A DNA stretch of 64,000 nt. It comes from Allorhodopirellula heiligendammensis. Lineage in GTDB: Bacteria; Planctomycetota; Planctomycetia; Pirellulales; Pirellulaceae. A program made the translations under genes and the position numbers. This document shows, in pieces, positions 1,338-60,286 of this stretch (within the stretch, counting starts at the first letter, position 1; each line of letters starts with the position of its first letter). Under the pieces are notes generated by a model. That model saw only the letters and a list, made by a program, of their open reading frames with translations, was not told the origin of the DNA and did not search any database. The DNA lies in assembly GCF_007860105.1 (NCBI RefSeq), contig NZ_SJPU01000002.1, positions 2,385,882 to 2,449,881 of the forward strand, written 5' to 3'.

Positions 1338-1384
1338 GCTGCCGGTTCTGTCCGCCCGTCGGCTAGCTCGCTAGGATTCTCATC

Positions 1385-4012
1385 ATGACACCAATGATGA
1401 GACAATATCACGACGCGAAAGAAGCGTGCGGCGACGCACTGCTATTCTTTCGCATGGGCGACTTCTACGAGCTTTTTCTCGAGGATGCGAAAGTCGCTGC
1501 CGGCATTCTCGGCTTGACCCTGACCAGCCGCGACAAAGACAGCGAGAACCCGACCGCGATGGCCGGGTTCCCCCACCACCAGCTCGATCAGTACTTGCAA
1601 AAGTTAATTCGGGCGGGCTACCGAGCCGCGGTCTGCGAACAGGTCGAGGATCCCAAACAGGCCAAGGGCCTGGTCCGTCGCGAGGTCACGCGCGTCGTCA
1701 GCGCCGGCACGCTCACCGACGATGGGCTGCTCGATCCTCGCGAGCCGAACTATTTGGCTGCTGTGATTGTGGCCAAGCCCACGGGCAAGTCCAAAGGCGC
1801 CCCTATCAATCCCACTGACCAAACCGTTGGCATCGCGTGGGCGGAACTCTCGAGCGGTCGATTCGAAACGGGGGTCTTCCCGCGCAATCGACTTGACGAT
1901 GAGCTCGCGCGGATCTCGCCTGCCGAAGTAATCTACTGCGAAGACGATCCGCACGTGTCTCCGGACACGACAATGCCCTGGGCGTGGACCCGGCGACCAG
2001 GCTGGAGCTTTGCTCGAGACGCTGCGGAAACCGCACTCACAAAACAACTCTCCGTTGCGAGCCTCGAAGGCCTTGGTTTCGAGGCTGATTCCGGCCCCGC
2101 GATCCGGGCAGCCGGTGCGGTGCTGTCGTACCTCCAAGAAACGCAACGAGGATCGCTCGACCATTTTCGCACGTTGACCTGTCACAACCGCAGTCCCGTG
2201 CTGCAAATCGATGCGGCAACGCGCCGTAGTCTTGAGATCAACCGCACGATGCGCAGCGGCGGCCGCGACGGCGCATTGCTCGGTGTCATCGATCGCACGG
2301 TCACCCCGATGGGATCGAGGTTGCTTGCGGATTACCTCGCCGCACCACTCGTTTCACCGGATGAGATCGCCTACCGCGCTGATGCTGTTTCGGAACTCGT
2401 TGCCAATCATTCGCTCCGCAGTGACGTGCGAAAGATATTGCGTGAGACATACGACCTGACACGGTTACTGGCCCGAATCGCCACCGGTCGCACCGGACCA
2501 CGTGATCTGCAACAGGTCGCCGCCACGCTGGCGGGTTTGCCCACGCTCAAAGCGAAACTCACCGATCGGGTCAGCCATTGCTTGAGCGAACTTGAATCAC
2601 GCTTGCATCTCTGCCCGGAACTGCGGACGAACCTCGAGAACGCACTCGCCGACGAATGCCCGCTCTCTGCGGCTGATGGTAACTTTGTACGCGCCGGATA
2701 CGACGAAGATCTCGATGCCCTGCGGGAACTCGCCAAGGGAGGTAAGCAGTGGATCGCCTCCTATCAACAGCGCCAGATGGACGAGACCGGCATCGCCAAT
2801 CTCAAAGTTGGCTACAACCGCGTGTTCGGTTACTTCCTCGAAGTCTCCAACGCCCACAAGAGCAAGGTCCCCACCGAGTTCATCCGGAAACAAACGCTGA
2901 AAAACTGCGAGCGTTACATCACCCCCGAACTCAAAGAGTACGAAGAAAAGGTGCTCGCCGCGGACGACAAAGCCAGTCTACGCGAACAGGAAATTTTCCA
3001 GCATCTACGCCAGATGGCTCACGCGAATCTGGCTGTTTTGCAGGAAGTTGCTGATGCGATCGCGCGCGTTGACGTGCTGGCTGCGATGGCCGAGGTCGCC
3101 GCCGTGCAACACTGGACGCGCCCCAAAATCACCGACGACAATACGCTGCGGATTGAAGGCGGGCGGCATCCTGTCCTCGACGTTTCGATGCAGCACGGCG
3201 AATTCGTCCCCAACGACTGTGCCCAAAGTCCCGCCGATGGCATGGTCCTATTAATCACCGGTCCCAACATGGCCGGCAAGAGCACCTACATTCGCCAGGT
3301 AGCACTCATTACTTTGCTGGCCCAGACCGGCAGCTTCGTGCCTGCCGACGCAGCGGAAATCGGCATCGCCGATCGCATCTTCGCTCGTGTCGGTGCCAGT
3401 GACGAGCTCAGTCGTGGTCAAAGTACCTTCATGGTCGAGATGGTCGAAACCGCACGTATCCTGAATACCGCCACCTCCCAAAGCCTCGTGATTCTCGACG
3501 AGATCGGACGTGGCACGAGCACCTACGACGGCCTATCGCTGGCGTGGGCGATCACGGAGCATCTGCACGAACAGATCGGCTGCCGCACACTGTTCGCGAC
3601 CCACTATCACGAACTCGCCTCGCTCGAAGAAACGCTACCTCGCGTTCGCAATCTCAACGTGGCCGTCAAAGAGTGGCAGGACGAAGTCGTGTTCCTGCAC
3701 CGGATCGTCAGCGGCAGCGCTGACAAGAGTTACGGGATCCAAGTCGCACGTTTGGCGGGTATCCCACCGGAGGTCAACAGCCGCGCCAAAGACATTCTGT
3801 TCCAGCTCGAGACCAACCACCGTGATAGCCACGACCGACCCGCGATCGCGCCACCGAGTAGCGAGAAGTCCGGCGACACGTTCCAGCTCACCTTGTTCGG
3901 CTATGCCGATCATCCGATGATCCAGCAACTCTCCAACCTCGACCTGGACAGCATGACGCCCATGAATGCATTGCAGTTCCTGCAAAAAGCCAAGCAAGAG
4001 ATTGCGAAGTAA
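1385..4012 (+). CDS. mutS: DNA mismatch repair protein MutS
   Basis: The 875-residue product has the usual MutS1 length. It binds base mismatches and small loops and, using ATP, recruits MutL to start repair. The mismatch-binding domain begins with a FFRMGDFYELF segment near residue 20, which carries the Phe-x-Glu that stacks on the mispair. The core and clamp regions follow. The ATPase has Walker A GPNMAGKS near residue 626, the following ST.MVEM segment, Walker B LVILDEIGRGTS and the conserved FATHYHEL histidine motif. The chosen ATG gives the normal N-terminus. No mutL is nearby, so it is probably transcribed alone. Confidence 0.98.
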   Translation: MTPMMRQYHDAKEACGDALLFFRMGDFYELFLEDAKVAAGILGLTLTSRDKDSENPTAMAGFPHHQLDQYLQKLIRAGYRAAVCEQVEDPKQAKGLVRREVTRVVSAGTLTDDGLLDPREPNYLAAVIVAKPTGKSKGAPINPTDQTVGIAWAELSSGRFETGVFPRNRLDDELARISPAEVIYCEDDPHVSPDTTMPWAWTRRPGWSFARDAAETALTKQLSVASLEGLGFEADSGPAIRAAGAVLSYLQETQRGSLDHFRTLTCHNRSPVLQIDAATRRSLEINRTMRSGGRDGALLGVIDRTVTPMGSRLLADYLAAPLVSPDEIAYRADAVSELVANHSLRSDVRKILRETYDLTRLLARIATGRTGPRDLQQVAATLAGLPTLKAKLTDRVSHCLSELESRLHLCPELRTNLENALADECPLSAADGNFVRAGYDEDLDALRELAKGGKQWIASYQQRQMDETGIANLKVGYNRVFGYFLEVSNAHKSKVPTEFIRKQTLKNCERYITPELKEYEEKVLAADDKASLREQEIFQHLRQMAHANLAVLQEVADAIARVDVLAAMAEVAAVQHWTRPKITDDNTLRIEGGRHPVLDVSMQHGEFVPNDCAQSPADGMVLLITGPNMAGKSTYIRQVALITLLAQTGSFVPADAAEIGIADRIFARVGASDELSRGQSTFMVEMVETARILNTATSQSLVILDEIGRGTSTYDGLSLAWAITEHLHEQIGCRTLFATHYHELASLEETLPRVRNLNVAVKEWQDEVVFLHRIVSGSADKSYGIQVARLAGIPPEVNSRAKDILFQLETNHRDSHDRPAIAPPSSEKSGDTFQLTLFGYADHPMIQQLSNLDLDSMTPMNALQFLQKAKQEIAK

Positions 4013-7395: not shown

Positions 7396-7449
7396 CGTAG
7401 CTGCCGTCACCAGACGGCGAAATATCCACGCTCTGGCGAGCGTAGCTAC
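7396..7449. repeat. Paired-hairpin intergenic element
   Basis: Outer ends CGTAGCT and CGTAGCTAC enclose two perfect hairpins: GCCGTC-ACCA-GACGGC and CGCTC-TGGC-GAGCG. It lies in the gap between two minus-strand genes. The plan matches the GGGACC elements further on, but the hairpin sequences differ completely. Confidence 0.7.
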
Positions 7450-36992: not shown

Positions 36993-37742
36993 ATGAATCC
37001 AATTCTCGAAGCCCGTGGTATCTTCAAGAGCTACTACAAGAATAAGATCGAGTTGCCAGTGCTGCGCGGCGTCGATGTGGCATTCCAGCACGGTGAAGTA
37101 TCCGCACTGGTGGGTCGCAGCGGCAGCGGCAAAAGCACACTGATGCACTTGCTGGCAACCCTCGACCAACCCGATGCCGGTGAAGTCTGGTTCGGTGGCG
37201 AGCGCATCGACAACCTCTCACGCCGGCAACGCGACTCCTACCGCAATCGTCAAATCGGCATCATCTTTCAGTTCTACCACCTGCTGCCAGAATTATCGGC
37301 ACTGGAAAACGTGCTCACGCCCGCAATGATTTCACGGAGCGTGCTGGGTTACTTCCGGGACCGTAAATCGCTCACGCATCGGGCCGAAGCGATGCTCGAC
37401 CGAGTCGGACTGCTCGACCGCAAATCCCACAAACCTTCGGAAATGTCGGGCGGCGAAATGCAACGGGTGGCCATTGCTCGCTCGCTGATGAGCGAACCTG
37501 AATTGCTGCTGGCCGATGAGCCGACTGGAAACCTCGACACCGAAACCGGTGAATCCATCCTGCAGTTGCTCCGCCAACTCAACAGCGAAGACGGGCTGAC
37601 GATCGTTATGATCACGCACGACGAATCGATCGCCGAACGCGCCGATCGTTGCTACCGTATGCAGGACGGCCTGCTCGTCGATCGCTTCTCGGTCGAAGCG
37701 ACAAAGGAAACATTCGCCCCTCGCGCACGCATTGTCGCATAG
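36993..37742 (+). CDS. LolD-type ABC transporter ATPase
   Basis: The 249-residue product has Walker A GRSGSGKST near residue 43, the Q-loop in IGIIFQFYHLLPELSALENV, signature MSGGEMQRVAIARSL, Walker B LLLADEPTGNLD and the H-loop in MITHDESIAERADR. These mark the LolD/MacB/FtsE group. ATG at 36993 gives the usual N-terminus. The TAG stop directly abuts the paired-hairpin element at 37743. Confidence 0.93.
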   Translation: MNPILEARGIFKSYYKNKIELPVLRGVDVAFQHGEVSALVGRSGSGKSTLMHLLATLDQPDAGEVWFGGERIDNLSRRQRDSYRNRQIGIIFQFYHLLPELSALENVLTPAMISRSVLGYFRDRKSLTHRAEAMLDRVGLLDRKSHKPSEMSGGEMQRVAIARSLMSEPELLLADEPTGNLDTETGESILQLLRQLNSEDGLTIVMITHDESIAERADRCYRMQDGLLVDRFSVEATKETFAPRARIVA

Positions 37743-37808
37743 GTAGTTTGGGACCATCGTCCCGAGCGGCAAATCACAGCACGGACGGGACATTGGTCCC
37801 ATCCTACG
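37743..37808. repeat. GGGACC paired-hairpin element, copy 1
   Basis: Outer ends GTAGTTTGGGACC and GGTCCCATCCTACG. Left hairpin GGGAC-CATC-GTCCC, right hairpin GGGAC-ATTG-GTCCC. It fills most of the gap between lolD and the halogenase-like gene. Confidence 0.75.
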
Positions 37809-40622: not shown

Positions 40623-40687
40623 GTAGTTGGGAACCACCGTCCCGAGCGTGATGATTGGTCGGGGACGGGACAAGGGTCCCATCCTAC
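40623..40687. repeat. GGGACC paired-hairpin element, copy 2
   Basis: Outer ends GTAGTTGGGAACC and GGGTCCCATCCTAC. It fills the 88-nt gap between the DinB-fold gene start and the desaturase stop; the right end is 4 nt from that stop codon. Confidence 0.75.
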
Positions 40688-40691
40688 AATC

Positions 40692-41795
40692 TTACGGCGT
40701 GAGCGACTTGCCTGGCACGCTGACTGCTTTGGGACGCTGGACGTTTTTCGCTAATCCGCACATTTCGAATAAGCGGATGACTCCCCAGGACATGTCGAAC
40801 TCGTACCAGCGGTGTCCGTGACGGGCGGCGCGTGGGGCGGCATGGTGGTTGTTGTGCCAACCTTCGCCATGGCTGATCAAGGCGACCAGCCAATTGTTCG
40901 TACTGTGGTCGCGGGTTTCGTAGTTACGATACCCAAAGACGTGTCCGAGCGAATTGACCGACCAGGTGCCATGCAGCACAAAGACGGTGCGAACGGCCAC
41001 AGCCCAGACGGCCCAGCTCAGGTAATACCGCCCGGCTTCGGACCAATCTCCGCCGCTGACGATCAAACCGAACAGACCGCCAATCAATGAGACGGCAATC
41101 GCGTGGGCGACGAATACGAAGAACCAGCCGTCCTTGCGTTCGAGTTTCAAGTAAAACGGGTCACGCAGCAGATCGCGAACATAACGCTCGTAATGGCTCG
41201 TCCGATCGAGGTCGCGGTGGCGACAGACGACCCAGCCCATGTGCCCCCACAACAGACTGGCCAGCGGCGAGTGGGGATCGGGTTGGTGGTCGGAGTGTTG
41301 GTGGTGCATGCGGTGAATCGCCACCCAGCGAGCGGGGCTGTCCTGCATGTTGCACATGCCGAGCACCGCGAGAGTGTGCTCGAGCCACTGCGGACAGGTG
41401 AATCCGCGATGGGTCAGCAAGCGATGGTAGCCGATCGTGATGCCCATCATCCCGAACAGAAAATGGCCCGCGATGGCGGCGATCAAGCCTGACCACGTAA
41501 ACAAATAGCTGAAAAACGGAGGCACAAAGGCGAGCAAAGCCACAATATGCACAATCGTCAGCACGATCAGGTATTTCCACATGATCTGCAGCGGTTCGGT
41601 GGCCTCGGGACGAGGCAGTCGCTGCGGATCGTGGCCAGCGAGCGAATCTTCCTCCTTATAAAGCAACTCATCGCCCATCGGATCGTACTGGGCAGCGGCC
41701 TGGTCGCCAGCTGCCTGGTCGCCAGCGGAACGGCCACGCGGCAGCGATTTCTCGCTCGGGCGGGACTCAGTTGGCGTTAATTCAGAGGTCGGCAT
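40692..41795 (-). CDS. Acyl-CoA/fatty-acid desaturase
   Basis: The 367-residue membrane di-iron enzyme introduces a double bond into acyl chains (delta-9 type). The three histidine boxes are HRLLTHRG near residue 123, HRMHHQHSD near residue 161 and HGEGWHNNHH near residue 310. Four hydrophobic segments surround them. The first 60 residues are polar, with a short duplication GDQAAGDQAA (15-bp repeat near 41700-41727). It probably adjusts membrane fluidity. Confidence 0.93.
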   Translation of the reverse strand: MPTSELTPTESRPSEKSLPRGRSAGDQAAGDQAAAQYDPMGDELLYKEEDSLAGHDPQRLPRPEATEPLQIMWKYLIVLTIVHIVALLAFVPPFFSYLFTWSGLIAAIAGHFLFGMMGITIGYHRLLTHRGFTCPQWLEHTLAVLGMCNMQDSPARWVAIHRMHHQHSDHQPDPHSPLASLLWGHMGWVVCRHRDLDRTSHYERYVRDLLRDPFYLKLERKDGWFFVFVAHAIAVSLIGGLFGLIVSGGDWSEAGRYYLSWAVWAVAVRTVFVLHGTWSVNSLGHVFGYRNYETRDHSTNNWLVALISHGEGWHNNHHAAPRAARHGHRWYEFDMSWGVIRLFEMCGLAKNVQRPKAVSVPGKSLTP

Positions 41796-48302: not shown

Positions 48303-48334
48303 GAGCTCGGACGGGACAATGGTCCCATCCCACG
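48303..48334. repeat. GGGACC element, right-half copy
   Basis: GAGCTCGGACGGGACAATGG then TCCCATCCCACG equals the right half of the element. It lies within 4 nt of the yraN stop codon. Confidence 0.6.
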
Positions 48335-48337
48335 TCC

Positions 48338-48844
48338 TCAGTAGAACGAGTACTCGATCGTGGACTCGAACGCCGCTTCGTAGTGCTCGATGCGGATAGG
48401 CAAGGGCTCGTCGGTGGGCCACCACACCGCCACAACATCGAATCGACAGGCGGTGCCGACCAATTTTTTTCGTTTGAGATACCGCAGTGCCGCCCGGCTG
48501 ATTCGCGCTTGTTTGTTTTCATCGACTCGATCGGCGGGGTGTCCAGGCCGGCGGGTCGCCAGTGTTTTGACTTCGACGAACACCATGATCCGGCGGCGGA
48601 CGTCCATGGCAATTAAGTCAATCTCCCCCGCCCGGTCCGATTCGCTCTCGGCGATCACCCGCAACCCTTTGCGGCGCAGCTCAATCGCGGCAACCTGTTC
48701 CCCTCGTTTACCGAGTTGGGCCTGGGGATCAAAAGTTCCGTAACGCCAGTCCCGGTATCGCTGTGCAATCGATGCAGGCGAGAGTAACGAACGCAGGTCG
48801 CCGAGCTGGAAACTTCGGGGCCATAAACTTCGGGGCCATGACAT
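48338..48844 (-). CDS. UPF0102 (YraN) family nuclease-like protein
   Basis: The 168-residue product has the core AQLGKRGEQVAAIELRRKGLRVIAESESDRAGEIDLIAMDVRRRIMVFVEVKT, that is the E...GEIDLI...VFVEVK restriction-endonuclease-like fold motif. The C-terminal part continues ADRVDENKQARISRAALRYL. Its physiological role is unsettled. ATG at 48844 lies 2 nt after the stop of the preceding gene. The N-terminus (MSWPRSLWPRS) is longer than usual. Confidence 0.88.
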   Translation of the reverse strand: MSWPRSLWPRSFQLGDLRSLLSPASIAQRYRDWRYGTFDPQAQLGKRGEQVAAIELRRKGLRVIAESESDRAGEIDLIAMDVRRRIMVFVEVKTLATRRPGHPADRVDENKQARISRAALRYLKRKKLVGTACRFDVVAVWWPTDEPLPIRIEHYEAAFESTIEYSFY

Positions 48845-51361: not shown

Positions 51362-52492
51362 ATGACAGATTCGTCTTCGCCCACCCCACCGCCCGTGGTC
51401 AAGCCATCTGGCACTCCGCCAGTCTCCCCGAAATCCCCGGAGGCCGCAAATCCGCCCCCGCCGGCGGCAGCCACCGGGAAACCACGCAACCTGGCTGATG
51501 TGCTGCGTGAGTTTGCCGAATACCAGCAGAAAATGCGAGACGAACTGGGCAAAGTGATCATTGGCCAGTCGGAGACTATCGAACAATTGCTGGCTGCCAT
51601 TTTCACACGTGGCCACTGCCTGCTCGAAGGCGTACCGGGACTCGCGAAAACACTGATGGTCAGCACTCTCGCCGATATTCTCGACGTGTCCTTCAAACGT
51701 GTTCAGTTCACGCCCGACCTGATGCCCTCAGATATCACGGGCACGCAGGTCCTGGAGGAATCGGAGTCGGGCCGGCGCAGCTTCCGATTTGTTGAAGGCC
51801 CCATCTTCACGAATATCCTGCTCGCCGACGAAATCAATCGTACCCCGCCTAAGACGCAAGCGGCGTTACTCGAAGCGATGCAGGAGCGTCAGGTCTCGGT
51901 GGGTCGCGAAACCCATACCCTGCCCGATCCCTTCTTCACGATCGCCACCCAAAACCCGGTCGAGCAGGAAGGCACCTATCCGCTGCCTGAAGCCCAGTTG
52001 GACCGGTTCATGTTCAACATCAAGATTGACTATCCGTCAGCGGACGAGGAAGAACGCATCCTGACGGCAACTACCCGTGGCGAGTCACCCACGGTCAACA
52101 AAGTTTTGTCGGGACGGGCGATCCTAACCTGCCAGAAACTCGTTGCCAGTATCGCAGCCGGCCCACTGGTGATCCGCTATGCATCGCGGCTGGTACGGGC
52201 AACCCGTCCGAGCGATGCCTCGGCACCGGAATACGTCCGCGAACTCGTCGATTGGGGAGCCGGGCCGCGGGCGGGCCAGAATCTCATTGCGGGCGCCAAA
52301 GCCATCGCGGCAATGCACGGCCGCTTCAACGTTGAACCCGGCGACATTCACCGGGTGGCGTTGCCCGTCCTCAGACACCGCATCGCGACGAATTTTCAAG
52401 CTCAAGCCGAAGGCATGGACACCGACGCGATCGTGAAGAGACTGCTCCAAGACGTTGAAATCCCCGAACCCGCCAAGATGGCGAACAAGTAG
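51362..52492 (+). CDS. MoxR-family AAA+ ATPase
   Basis: The 376-residue product has a Pro-rich N-terminus of about 45 residues and then the MoxR core: IGQSETIEQLLAAIFTRGHCLLEGVPGLAKT (Walker A GVPGLAKT), FTPDLMPSDITGTQVL, ILLADEINRTPPKTQAALLEAMQERQV and FTIATQNPVEQEGTYPLPEAQLDRF. MoxR proteins act as chaperones, usually with a VWA or DUF58 partner, absent here. The ATG at 51362 is preferred to a TTG 17 codons upstream. The TAG stop is inside the repeat array that follows. Confidence 0.93.
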   Translation: MTDSSSPTPPPVVKPSGTPPVSPKSPEAANPPPPAAATGKPRNLADVLREFAEYQQKMRDELGKVIIGQSETIEQLLAAIFTRGHCLLEGVPGLAKTLMVSTLADILDVSFKRVQFTPDLMPSDITGTQVLEESESGRRSFRFVEGPIFTNILLADEINRTPPKTQAALLEAMQERQVSVGRETHTLPDPFFTIATQNPVEQEGTYPLPEAQLDRFMFNIKIDYPSADEEERILTATTRGESPTVNKVLSGRAILTCQKLVASIAAGPLVIRYASRLVRATRPSDASAPEYVRELVDWGAGPRAGQNLIAGAKAIAAMHGRFNVEPGDIHRVALPVLRHRIATNFQAQAEGMDTDAIVKRLLQDVEIPEPAKMANK

Positions 52493-52608
52493 CAGCGGCT
52501 CTCCGAGACGCTGATCCCGAGTCTCCGAGAGGTTGATCCCGAGTCTCGGAGAGGTTGATCCGAGTCTCCGAGAGGTTGATCCCGAGCCTCGGAGAGGCTC
52601 GGCTACTC
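52489..52608. repeat. Tandem 22-bp palindromic repeat array after moxR
   Basis: Five units of 21-24 bp, each with TCTCCGAGA or TCTCGGAGA and the linker GGTTGATCCCGAG, run from the moxR stop codon. Outer ends AGTAGCAGCGGCTCTCCGAG and CTCGGAGAGGCTCGGCTACT are inverted copies. It equals the hisA-thyA element with its interior amplified. The rest of the 52493-52749 gap is a pyrimidine-rich hisA leader. Confidence 0.75.
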
Positions 52609-52749
52609 TGACAATCTCCCGGTTCCGGACAAGCCAGATTTCCGACAGAATGCGGGCGAAGCTCTAGGCAGCTCCTGATTTTCTGTCGTCGCTTCGCCAC
52701 TCAATTACGTCTCCCAATCTCTCTCATTCCCTCTCTTCGGATCAGCTGC

Positions 52750-53472
52750 ATGGAAATTTGGCCCGCGATCGATCTACGTCATGGCAAACCCGTCCGGCTG
52801 CGCCAGGGCGACTATGACCAACAAACCACTTTCGGCGAGGATCCTGTCGAATTTGCTCAGAAGTGGCAGGCGGCTGGCGCGCGGCGATTGCACCTGGTCG
52901 ATCTTGATGCCGCCCGAGGCGACGATCCCGCTGCTAATCGAGCTGCGGTCCGACGGATCGTCGAGGCGACCGGACTGCCATGCCAAATGGGCGGCGGGGT
53001 TCGTGATCAAGAGACGATGGAAGCATTGATCGATGCTGGCGTCGCCCGCCTGGTCGTCGGCTCACGAGCACTCAAAGATCCGCAGTGGTTCACGCAGATG
53101 TGCGATCGCTTCCCGGGCAAACTCGCCGCCGGGATCGATGCCCGCAACGGATTGGTGGCCACGCAAGGGTGGCTGGAGACAAGCAAAGTGACAGCCATCG
53201 AACTGGCGAAAACACTCCGGGAGCAGACCGCCAACATCGCCGCGATTATCTATACCGACATCGCCAAAGACGGCATGATGCAAGGCCCCAATTTCGAAGG
53301 ACTGGCGGAAATGGCTGCCGCCACCGACATCCCACTGGTAGCCAGCGGCGGTGTGACAACCTACGAAGATGTCGAAAAACTCGTGGCGATGAACATGCCC
53401 GCAGCGATCATCGGCCGCTCGCTCTACGATGGCGTTATGGATCTAGAGCGAGTGCTGCAGATCGCTGAGTAG
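52750..53472 (+). CDS. hisA: Phosphoribosyl-formimino-AICAR-ribotide isomerase HisA
   Basis: The 240-residue (beta/alpha)8 enzyme performs the fourth step of histidine synthesis. IWPAIDLRHGKPVRLRQGDY holds the first catalytic Asp (residue about 7), then LHLVDLDAARG, QMGGGVRDQETMEALIDAGVARLVVGS, IIYTDIAKDGMMQGPNFEG with the second Asp, and PLVASGGVTTYEDV. It stands alone, away from other his genes. The stop TAG belongs to the repeat at 53468. Confidence 0.97.
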   Translation: MEIWPAIDLRHGKPVRLRQGDYDQQTTFGEDPVEFAQKWQAAGARRLHLVDLDAARGDDPAANRAAVRRIVEATGLPCQMGGGVRDQETMEALIDAGVARLVVGSRALKDPQWFTQMCDRFPGKLAAGIDARNGLVATQGWLETSKVTAIELAKTLREQTANIAAIIYTDIAKDGMMQGPNFEGLAEMAAATDIPLVASGGVTTYEDVEKLVAMNMPAAIIGRSLYDGVMDLERVLQIAE

Positions 53473-53573
53473 CAGCGTCTCTCCGAGACGCTATGAGTTA
53501 CTGCAGCGGAAAATCGTCAAGATTCCCGCTACCTCAGAAATCAAATGCGAGTCTCGGAGAGACTCGGCTACTC
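53468..53573. repeat. Paired TCTCCGAGA element between hisA and thyA
   Basis: Left end AGTAGCAGCGTCTCTCCGAG (contains the hisA stop), right end CGAGTCTCGGAGAGACTCGG followed by CTACTC. The ends are inverted copies; the middle is unrelated. The element fills the whole convergent gap. Confidence 0.75.
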
Positions 53574-53574
53574 A

Positions 53575-54375
53575 CTACACCGCCACGGGTGCCTTGATGT
53601 GGGGATGGGGGTTGTAGTCGGTGAGCTCGAAATCCTCAAACCGGAAATCGTCCATCGAGTCGACTTGGCGAACAATTTTCAGCTGCGGGCGCGGCCGCGG
53701 TTCGCGGGCGAGTTGCAACTTCGCCTGCTCAAAGTGATTCGAATACAAATGCACATCCCCAAGGGTGTGTACAAACTCCCCTGGTCGCAGTCCTGTCACA
53801 TGCGCCATCATCGTGGTCAACAACGCGTAGCTGGCGATGTTGAATGGAACCCCAAGAAAAAGGTCGGCGCTGCGCTGATAGAGCTGGCAGGATAACCGTC
53901 CATCGGCAACGTAGAATTGAAATAACAGGTGACAGGGCGGCAGGGCCATCTGCGGCACGTCGGCGACGTTCCACGCCGAGACAATCAATCGGCGAGATTC
54001 TGGGTTGGTACGAATCTCATTCTCCACCCAGGCAATCTGATCAATGGACTCGCAGTTTTCGCCACTAACTGGCCAGCTCCGCCACTGGTGCCCGTAAACC
54101 GGCCCCAATTCACCGTCTGCATCCGCCCACTCGTCCCAAATCGAAACGCCATGGTCTTTGAGCCACCGCGTGTTGGTATCGCCTCGCAAAAACCACAGCA
54201 GCTCATAGAGTATCGAGCGGACATGCAGCTTTTTGGTAGTCAACAGTGGAAACCCGTCGGCTAAATCAAATCGCATTTGCCGACCAAACAGGCTGCGGGT
54301 ACCAACGCCGGTGCGATCACCGCGGTCGGTCCCCTGCTCGAGCACTTCGGCGAGGAGGTCTAAATAGCCTTGCAT
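53575..54375 (-). CDS. thyA: Thymidylate synthase ThyA
   Basis: The 266-residue product converts dUMP to dTMP with methylene-tetrahydrofolate. [45 protein letters not shown], the catalytic cysteine in [38 protein letters not shown] and [12 protein letters not shown] are in order. ATG at 54375 is used because the 19 codons before it are not conserved. Convergent with hisA. Confidence 0.98.
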
Positions 54376-54400
54376 GAACAGTCGATCAATGAGGGTGTAT

Positions 54401-54482
54401 GTAGCTAGGGACCTTCGTCCCGAGCGAGACATGGGATCCTCAGGAAATAGTAGCTCAGACGGACCAATGGTCCCATCCTACG
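54401..54482. repeat. GGGACC paired-hairpin element, copy 3
   Basis: Outer ends GTAGCTAGGGACC and TGGTCCCATCCTACG. The methyltransferase stop codon (54478-54480, minus strand) is the TAG of the right-hand CGTAG end. An extra GTAGCTCAGAC lies in the middle, as if two elements merged. Confidence 0.75.
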
Positions 54483-55203
54483 AACGCTCTGGCCGTCGAC
54501 AATCGAGTGTCCAGTGCCGATCGCTCGTCATGTTCACACAATCTGCGTCAATGCCGAGATCCGACACGAGACCGCGGATCTCGGCCAGCGTTAACGAGGC
54601 ATAAAACGATTGACGCAGTAGCTGCGAAGGGGAGACGCCGCTCGCATTCTCCTCCACCGCGCCTCCGTGAAGAGCCACGAGCCGCTCGACTTCGGTCTCG
54701 GTTTCCGGGCGCACCAAATCACGAATGAACAGCCGGCCGGCCGGTTGCAATGCTCGAATCGCCAGCCGCAAGGCAGCCGCCGGGTCATCGAGATGATGCA
54801 ACACCGTGTTGCAAATCACCGTATCGGCCAACTCCGCGTCCAATGACTCGTCGTCACTCAGGTCAATCCGCTGGAGCTGGATCTGCCGCAATCGACCGGC
54901 GAACTCGATTTCGAAACGAGCAAGTTCCAACATCTCGGCACAGTTGTCGACACCCATCACGACGAGTTCCGAGTGATCGTCCGACTCAACGTCGTCGCAG
55001 GTGATCTGCTCGGCATGCTCGCACAGCAGGATCGGAATTAATGCTGGCCCGCACCCCAAGTCGATCACGCGCGGACCAACCGGTCCGCTCCGAAACAGGT
55101 CGGTCACAAAACGACGATTGACGTCGCCATGATCCATCTCGCGGTAGACCTTCGCTTCTAATTTGGGGTCGTCAGCAGGCGGTTCACAGGTGCGGCTAAG
55201 CAT
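54478..55203 (-). CDS. Class I SAM-dependent methyltransferase
   Basis: The 241-residue product has the SAM motif VIDLGCGPALIPILL near residue 46, an acidic strand-2 end (VMGVDNCAEML) and the motif-IV-like ADTVICNTVLHHLDDPAAALRLA. The late GRLFIRDLVRP strand is the fourth. The substrate cannot be told from sequence. The leader is C/U-rich without Shine-Dalgarno. Confidence 0.88.
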   Translation of the reverse strand: MLSRTCEPPADDPKLEAKVYREMDHGDVNRRFVTDLFRSGPVGPRVIDLGCGPALIPILLCEHAEQITCDDVESDDHSELVVMGVDNCAEMLELARFEIEFAGRLRQIQLQRIDLSDDESLDAELADTVICNTVLHHLDDPAAALRLAIRALQPAGRLFIRDLVRPETETEVERLVALHGGAVEENASGVSPSQLLRQSFYASLTLAEIRGLVSDLGIDADCVNMTSDRHWTLDCRRPERS

Positions 55204-55242: not shown

Positions 55243-55300
55243 GGTAGCGGATCTGGCGAAAGATTCTGCGGCGTCAGGGTATGTCCCAAGATCCGCTACC
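55243..55300 (-). terminator. Hairpin after transaldolase gene
   Basis: Arms GGTAGCGGATCTGG and CCAAGATCCGCTACC (one-base bulge) flank a loop of about 29 nt, just after the tal stop on the minus strand. It is the likely 3' end of the tal transcript. Confidence 0.5.
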
Positions 55301-56398: not shown

Positions 56399-56465
56399 CG
56401 TAGCTCGGGACCGTTATCCCGAGCGAGCAGATCGGTCAAGGACGGGACGAGGGTCCCATCCTACG
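56399..56465. repeat. GGGACC paired-hairpin element, copy 4
   Basis: Outer ends CGTAGCTCGGGACC and GGGTCCCATCCTACG, the most complete copy. It lies between the tal start and the cls stop, near 95 nt from that stop. Confidence 0.75.
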
Positions 56466-60173: not shown

Positions 60174-60200
60174 TCGAGCAGACGAGGCCCTTGCGACCGT

Positions 60201-60286
60201 CGAATGGGACCATGGTCCCGTCCGGGCGCAACTTCTCAGAAAACCACCGCTAAACTGATCGCTCGGGACAACAGTCCCGAGCTACG
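60201..60286. repeat. GGGACC paired-hairpin element, copy 5 (inverted)
   Basis: GAATGGGACCATGGTCCCGT on the left and GCTCGGGACAACAGTCCCGA then GCTACG on the right, the reverse orientation of the other copies. It lies between convergent genes. Confidence 0.7.

Follow-up and report, generated by a model that had tools for sequence, protein, structure and literature searches.

GTAG-tagged REP hairpins supply the stop codons of adjoining genes in Allorhodopirellula heiligendammensis

The repeat elements of the Allorhodopirellula heiligendammensis genome are GTAG-tagged REP hairpins of two families (A and B), often arranged as inverted, REPIN-like pairs, and many of them supply the stop codon of the gene that they adjoin: across the whole sample, 31 of the 75 outermost ends facing a gene 3' end provided its stop, against none of the 49 facing a gene 5' end (Fisher 1.4e-8). 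Stop supply by GTAG REPs is in itself a known phenomenon, since the accessible text of Di Nocera et al. 2013 (PMC3733652) states that REP termini often provide a TAG stop to flanking ORFs. Here that one-line literature remark becomes a measured pattern, i.e. the placement of the repeats relative to genes, a bias in the frames in which genes meet them, and the displacement of stops at eight junctions compared with a relative.

Within the window, i.e. the whole 64-kb stretch of DNA analysed, repeats adjoin the genes listed in Table 1. The distance d runs from the opening base of a stop codon to the T in the GTAG tag, so that d = 0 when the TAG inside GTAG is itself the stop. Direct reading and a script both gave d = 0 for moxR, hisA and the methyltransferase gene, bearing out the sequence-only reading that the TAG of each is that of a repeat's GTAG; its further observations, that the lolD TAG abuts GTAG and that the desaturase and yraN stops lie within about 5 nt of an element, were likewise confirmed, the yraN tag being GTGG and not GTAG. 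The thyA junction, which lies beyond that reading's list, reads TAG-TGA-GTAG. Elsewhere in the genome a second moxR-type gene (G000:C2:474607-475623) ends at a family A repeat, with TGA directly before GTAG.

Table 1. Repeats and adjoining genes in the window (window positions), with the transposase gene (positions within its own region)
Feature	Position	Strand	Remarks
ABC ATPase (lolD-like) gene	36993-37742	+	TAG 37740-37742 abuts GTAG at 37743
Family B REP pair	37743..37807	.	directly after lolD-like gene
Family B REP pair	40623..40687	.	4 nt from desaturase stop
Desaturase gene (PF00487)	40692-41795	-	stop 40694-40692
Family B end, GTGG tag	48306..48333	-	4 nt from yraN stop
UPF0102 (yraN-type, PF02021) gene	48338-48844	-	stop 48340-48338
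moxR-type AAA ATPase gene	51395..52492	+	ORF opens 51311; repeat supplies stop TAG 52490-52492
Family A REP pair (GTAG ... CTAC) after moxR	52489..52606	.	GTAG holds moxR stop
hisA	52750..53472	+	repeat supplies stop TAG 53470-53472
Family A REP pair, fills convergent hisA-thyA gap	53469..53571	.	flush with hisA on the left; right-hand tag 3 nt away from thyA stop
thyA	53575..54375	-	ORF opens 54432; own stop TAG 53577-53575, then TGA, then repeat GTAG
Family B REP pair (GTAGCTAGGGAC ... GTCCCATCCTAC)	54401..54481	.	
Class I methyltransferase gene	54478..55203	-	stop TAG 54480-54478 from family B end
Family B REP pair, flanked by two minus-strand genes	56400..56464	.	supplies no stop
Family B REP pair, between convergent genes	60199..60285	.	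16-25 nt from stops
RAYT gene	L008 (G000:C2:1142372 region), 1342-1908	-	repeats 1345-3101

Both families show the hallmarks of the GTAG REP superfamily, being short palindromes with GTAG at the 5' foot, present in many copies. The family A pattern matched 78 times in the whole genome, against three matches for the reversed pattern, and the family B patterns matched 74 and 113 times against 2 and 12, with some palindromes counted twice because these two patterns overlap. A family A end consists of TGA-GTAG followed by a stem around CTCTCCGAG and presents stops in two of the three frames; family B, with one end GTAGCTTGGGACCATTGTCCCGAGC and the other GTAGGATGGGACCATTGTCCC, presents a stop in one frame only. 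Once 19 palindromes matching both strands had been taken out, the 147 elements included 56 true inverted pairs (27 A, 29 B) with their tags outward. As in REPINs, the inverted unit recurs in family B, at 65 nt (n = 9) and 68 nt (n = 5), and family A pairs measure 56 to 209 nt, with spacers differing in both length and content. Family A ends are almost identical to one another. TGA directly precedes GTAG at 28 of 44 3'-facing and 16 of 29 5'-facing family A ends (inner ends included), often on both flanks of a pair, and is therefore most likely family A's own end or the trace of a target preference; that it is a mere host stop is unlikely, although single loci may differ, and at a 373-aa gene the TGA may be the host's, because eight of 12 relatives already end in TGA there.

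The counts that follow were drawn from a 7.18-Mb genome in 35 contigs, the sample consisting of the window, 1.6 Mb from contig C2 and 0.69 Mb in 58 regions picked for elements; all 58 were selected for holding pattern matches, those for family B from among the matches listed, and a few weak A or B matches were left out. Genes were called by our own dicodon predictor, not taken from a curated annotation. The search found 222 repeat ends, 155 of them with an intact GTAG, and 148 (intact GTAG, at most two mismatches) were used, so that the main counts omit ends with a damaged GTAG or more mismatches. Only outermost ends were counted, 10 inner ends being set aside together with the 14 of 148 that lie inside predicted genes; the repeats are thus mostly intergenic, with a 3' bias, as is typical of the superfamily.

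Among 3'-facing ends, family A supplied the TAG in 8 of 37 cases and had the stop directly before GTAG (TGA, once TAA) in a further 12, and family B supplied it in 11 of 38, one more (lolD) having TAG directly before GTAG. No start is overlapped by any of the 49 5'-facing outermost ends, whose d values begin at 14 (a 10-nt gap), and d was 20 or less (a gap of up to 16 nt) at 51 of the 75 3'-facing ends against 2 of the 49. In the 1.6 Mb and the window, 12 of 62 REP GTAGs coincide with predicted gene stops, as against 142 of 6742 other GTAGs (Fisher 9.6e-9). The distance to the stop, which the sequence-only reading had proposed to check against random positions, proved non-random in this sample: 30 of 77 ends lay flush with a stop where 8.0 were expected, the maximum in 5000 random placements within gaps being 14, and a count that admitted damaged tags came to 30 of 84, with 8.1 expected. 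Of the earlier interpretation, a strong preference for gene 3' ends is accordingly supported. Even ends that leave the host stop intact crowd near it, 20 of 54 lying within 16 nt where 11.0 would be expected, and five of six two-ended family A pairs in convergent gaps (86-166 nt) are flush, to within 3 nt, with both genes; it is for these two reasons likely that a 3'-end preference, whether by target or by function, operates besides tolerance.

The frame in which genes run into the repeats is also biased. Were insertions into coding ends indifferent to frame, the cases expected to read into the hairpin would be one third in family A and two thirds in family B. None of 20 family A cases did so (p = 3e-4), a figure that treats the 12 TGA or TAA cases as the element's own stops, and in family B there was one in 12 (p = 4.7e-5). 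That sole read-in, at C1:1807175, is one of the 14 gene-internal ends (family B, same-strand read-in) and lies in a 67-aa ORF that is possibly no gene; a second read-in value (C2:2615103, d = -79) was excluded, being the reverse reading of a palindrome lacking a GTAG tag. Missing read-through insertions are most simply explained by their removal through selection.

Stop positions were compared with those in G006, the nearest relative sampled, a positive shift meaning that our gene is the shorter; at the hisA locus the named neighbours are Rhodopirellula species, of which R. solitaria CA85 is nearest (93%). The stop had moved in six of eight element-ended genes, as against 20 of 105 controls (p = 0.0018), 85 of which stop at the identical residue in G006. 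Five of the six moved stops shorten our gene, by one codon (hisA and a 305-aa gene), four (moxR), five (a 207-aa gene) or nine (a 400-aa gene), and one lengthens it by a codon (a 149-aa gene, compared in G006 only; shift -1); the 373-aa gene and a 401-aa gene show a shift of 0. With orthologues of at least 80% identity only, the stop had moved in four of six element-ended genes against 11 of 73 controls (p = 0.011). Genes that keep their own stop, with a repeat at d 7-14, had it unchanged in G006 in four of six cases. Across up to 12 congeners the 373-aa, 401-aa, 305-aa, moxR and hisA products end within 6 codons of ours, the 373-aa gene having the same length in all 12 relatives. The methyltransferase gene, for which Neorhodopirellula pilleata (57% identity) afforded the sole comparison, is 3 codons longer in our genome, and locus L265 (37% identity) was left out as an orthologue. 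None of the eight junctions showed a large truncation of tens of codons, the largest difference being nine.

These shifts divide the earlier suggestion that the repeats insert at stop codons: it comes close, two of the eight stops being unmoved, but insertion is not exact, since six have moved by 1-9 codons, mostly shortening the gene. Exact stop-codon targeting was for this reason rejected as the whole story and is retained below as a rival. In G006 no empty site could be placed base by base, the coding flanks aligning to within a few bases at some loci and the intergenic DNA being too diverged; the hisA-thyA gap there, of some 80 nt, is not alignable. The 987-aa partner of the 207-aa gene found no match in the corresponding G006 locus (L264), where a different repeat-like sequence with repeated 'gtcgaccgacggctccgaccgtcgcgagt' follows the 207-aa orthologue at the place that in G000 holds family A. 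Family A ends number 75 here and two in G006, and a search of 11 further genomes of the genus gave 0-34. Such counts fit a spread in the host lineage, and a genome-wide loss in G006, instead of a gain here, may also have occurred, other congeners holding up to 34 ends.

We consider it probable that REP hairpins land around gene 3' ends and that, where one falls within the last few codons, its outer end replaces the native stop. REP pairs would on this account be spread, probably, by a REP-associated Y1 transposase; a landing in the last codons would at once make the outer repeat end the stop, through the TAG inside GTAG in either family or the preceding TGA in family A (TGA-GTAG); frames reading through the hairpin would be eliminated by selection; and the surviving gene would be repeat-ended, shorter by zero to about nine codons, with the hairpin directly behind its stop. 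The placement of the outermost ends, the scarcity of read-in frames and the contrast of 75 family A ends here with two in G006 favour this account, and the movement of six of eight stops, mostly towards shortening, suggests that in most cases the repeat became the stop through a landing in the final codons. Set against this account are the comparison of only eight junctions, two of them without a shift; the crowding of intact-stop ends, which tolerance of short truncation leaves unexplained; and the double flush of convergent family A pairs, which does not easily arise from one random insertion. It would outline a route by which a probably mobile repeat can join gene ends without killing genes.

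The transposase evidence points both ways. In favour of this account, the genome does encode a REP-associated tyrosine transposase (RAYT; 177.9 bits against an NCBI cut-off of 80), which lies within an array formed by a third GTAG REP family, family D (GTAGGGCCGGTTCC[CT]ACCGGCC); against it, no transposase was found beside families A or B, there being no family A or B end within about 1.5 kb on each side of the six Y1 loci. In the accessible text of PMC8266576, TnpA-REP enzymes cleave other REPs at CT or CA in vitro, GTAG helping in the choice of site, and the spread of REPs through such cleavage is put forward as a proposal.

It is possible, although we hold it doubtful, that position itself has been selected, a hairpin right behind a stop being useful (for 3' end protection or for slowing terminating ribosomes) and copies there being kept. 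The excess of 3'-facing ends at d of 20 or less and the preference persisting among intact-stop ends would both follow. At moxR and hisA the stem starts 0-1 nt past the stop. The same closeness marks the translation-regulating REPs of E. coli, those within 15 nt of a stop being reported to lower translation in work cited in the available part of PMC12306157; the hairpin close behind the stop is common to both systems and might by analogy act alike here, with the difference that here the repeat itself supplies the stop. Against shuffled sequences, the hisA-side hairpin (-13.6 kcal/mol, 36 nt, z -1.90), the thyA-side hairpin (-13.6 kcal/mol, z -1.74), the whole moxR pair (-58.1 kcal/mol, 121 nt, z -2.68) and the lolD pair (-38.9 kcal/mol, 76 nt, z -6.81) were folded as well. 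Selection for position is countered by the single moxR (-9.9 kcal/mol, z -0.62) and methyltransferase (-12.5 kcal/mol, z -0.16) hairpins, which fold no better than shuffles, and by the count of terminator-like sites (hairpin plus U run), which between 51300 and 56600 stood at three against 4.9 +- 2.2 in shuffles, i.e. not above chance; two of the three overlap repeats (the thyA-side REP and the pair at 56400), and none lies at the moxR, hisA or methyltransferase stop. In addition, the hisA-thyA gap of the nearest relative holds non-alignable sequence, and selection may simply remove insertions that fall at other places in a gap. The count of terminator-like sites likewise lends no support to the suggestion of the sequence-only reading that the elements act as mRNA ends or stabilisers.

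Target choice, in which the transposase would favour a short motif common at stops (T then GA, or TGA) and insertion would be truly at stop codons, appears unlikely. T is the third base before GTAG at 19 of 20 stop-supplying family A ends, as against 38 of 58 others; the cleavage preference of TnpA-REP and the part played in it by GTAG (PMC8266576, in the portion available) and the constant length of the 373-aa gene are further points in its favour. Family B, however, mostly has C before GTAG and lacks TGA, yet supplies stops; TGA occurs on both flanks of pairs and at ends that face no stop; and the movement of most stops tells against a fixed target. An equally speculative reading, which we would not expect to hold, is that TGA-GTAG is a two-frame stop cassette, kept or evolved at both outer ends of family A because it renders landings on gene ends harmless, such that repeats and gene ends would co-evolve and the host would come to depend on the repeat for termination.

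Capture after insertion is decidedly improbable. An element would here have settled behind a stop, and deletions or loss of the native stop would then have let its own in-frame stop take over, locking it in; the occurrence of flush ends at either side of a convergent gap would be accounted for, whereas loss of a native stop should lengthen genes, of which five of eight are shorter and one is longer by a single codon, and the near-identity of family A ends speaks for a short history. An artefact of gene calling or of GTAG frequency, conceivable with a home-made predictor, is very improbable indeed, and is refuted for the junctions tested by agreement of the stops with orthologues to within nine codons in all eight, and countered in general by the rarity with which other GTAGs are stops. 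Landing in the last codons continues to be the reading that we prefer.

REPIN/RAYT systems are reportedly the subject of work by Bertels in 2011. The present genome has in common with them (Nunvar 2010, PMC2817692; PMC8266576, both as partly available) inverted REP pairs and a RAYT in the same genome, and differs in that the transposase lies beside family D REPs and not A or B, and in the variable spacers of family A. With the GTAG REP superfamily, as described in the accessible text of PMC3733652, it shares GTAG at one end of a stem-loop, many copies, dimers and a position near gene 3' ends; that text places GTAG repeats in the PVC superphylum. Its main text has no occurrence of Rhodopirellula, and its accessible portion contains no frame analysis, no comparison of stops with relatives and no TGA-GTAG end. 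Among the papers listed by a limited literature search, titles and the starts of abstracts showed no frame or orthologue test of REP-supplied stops, and as far as that search shows, what is new is the occurrence in this genus, the end with stops in two frames, the bias in frame and the orthologue test. The junctions constitute a natural bank in which to ask whether hairpins directly behind stops alter translation or mRNA decay in planctomycetes.

Several further repeats were observed. A compact 56-bp family A pair with identical 20-nt flanks occurs three times (G000:C2:894031, C2:1899293 and C1:1509165) and, because those flanks are identical, probably rides inside a longer repeated element, and a tandem array at L127 (G000:C2:2529723-2530272) comprises four copies of one family A pair, about 162 nt apart and with near-identical flanks. 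The window also holds, between the methyltransferase and transaldolase genes (55243-55300), another inverted repeat with GTAG, whose arms are GGTAGCGGATCT... and ...AGATCCGCTACC, and yet another type of inverted GTAG pair (GTAGCTGCCGTCACCAGACGGC / GTAGCTACGCTCGCCAGAGCG) at 7397-7449.
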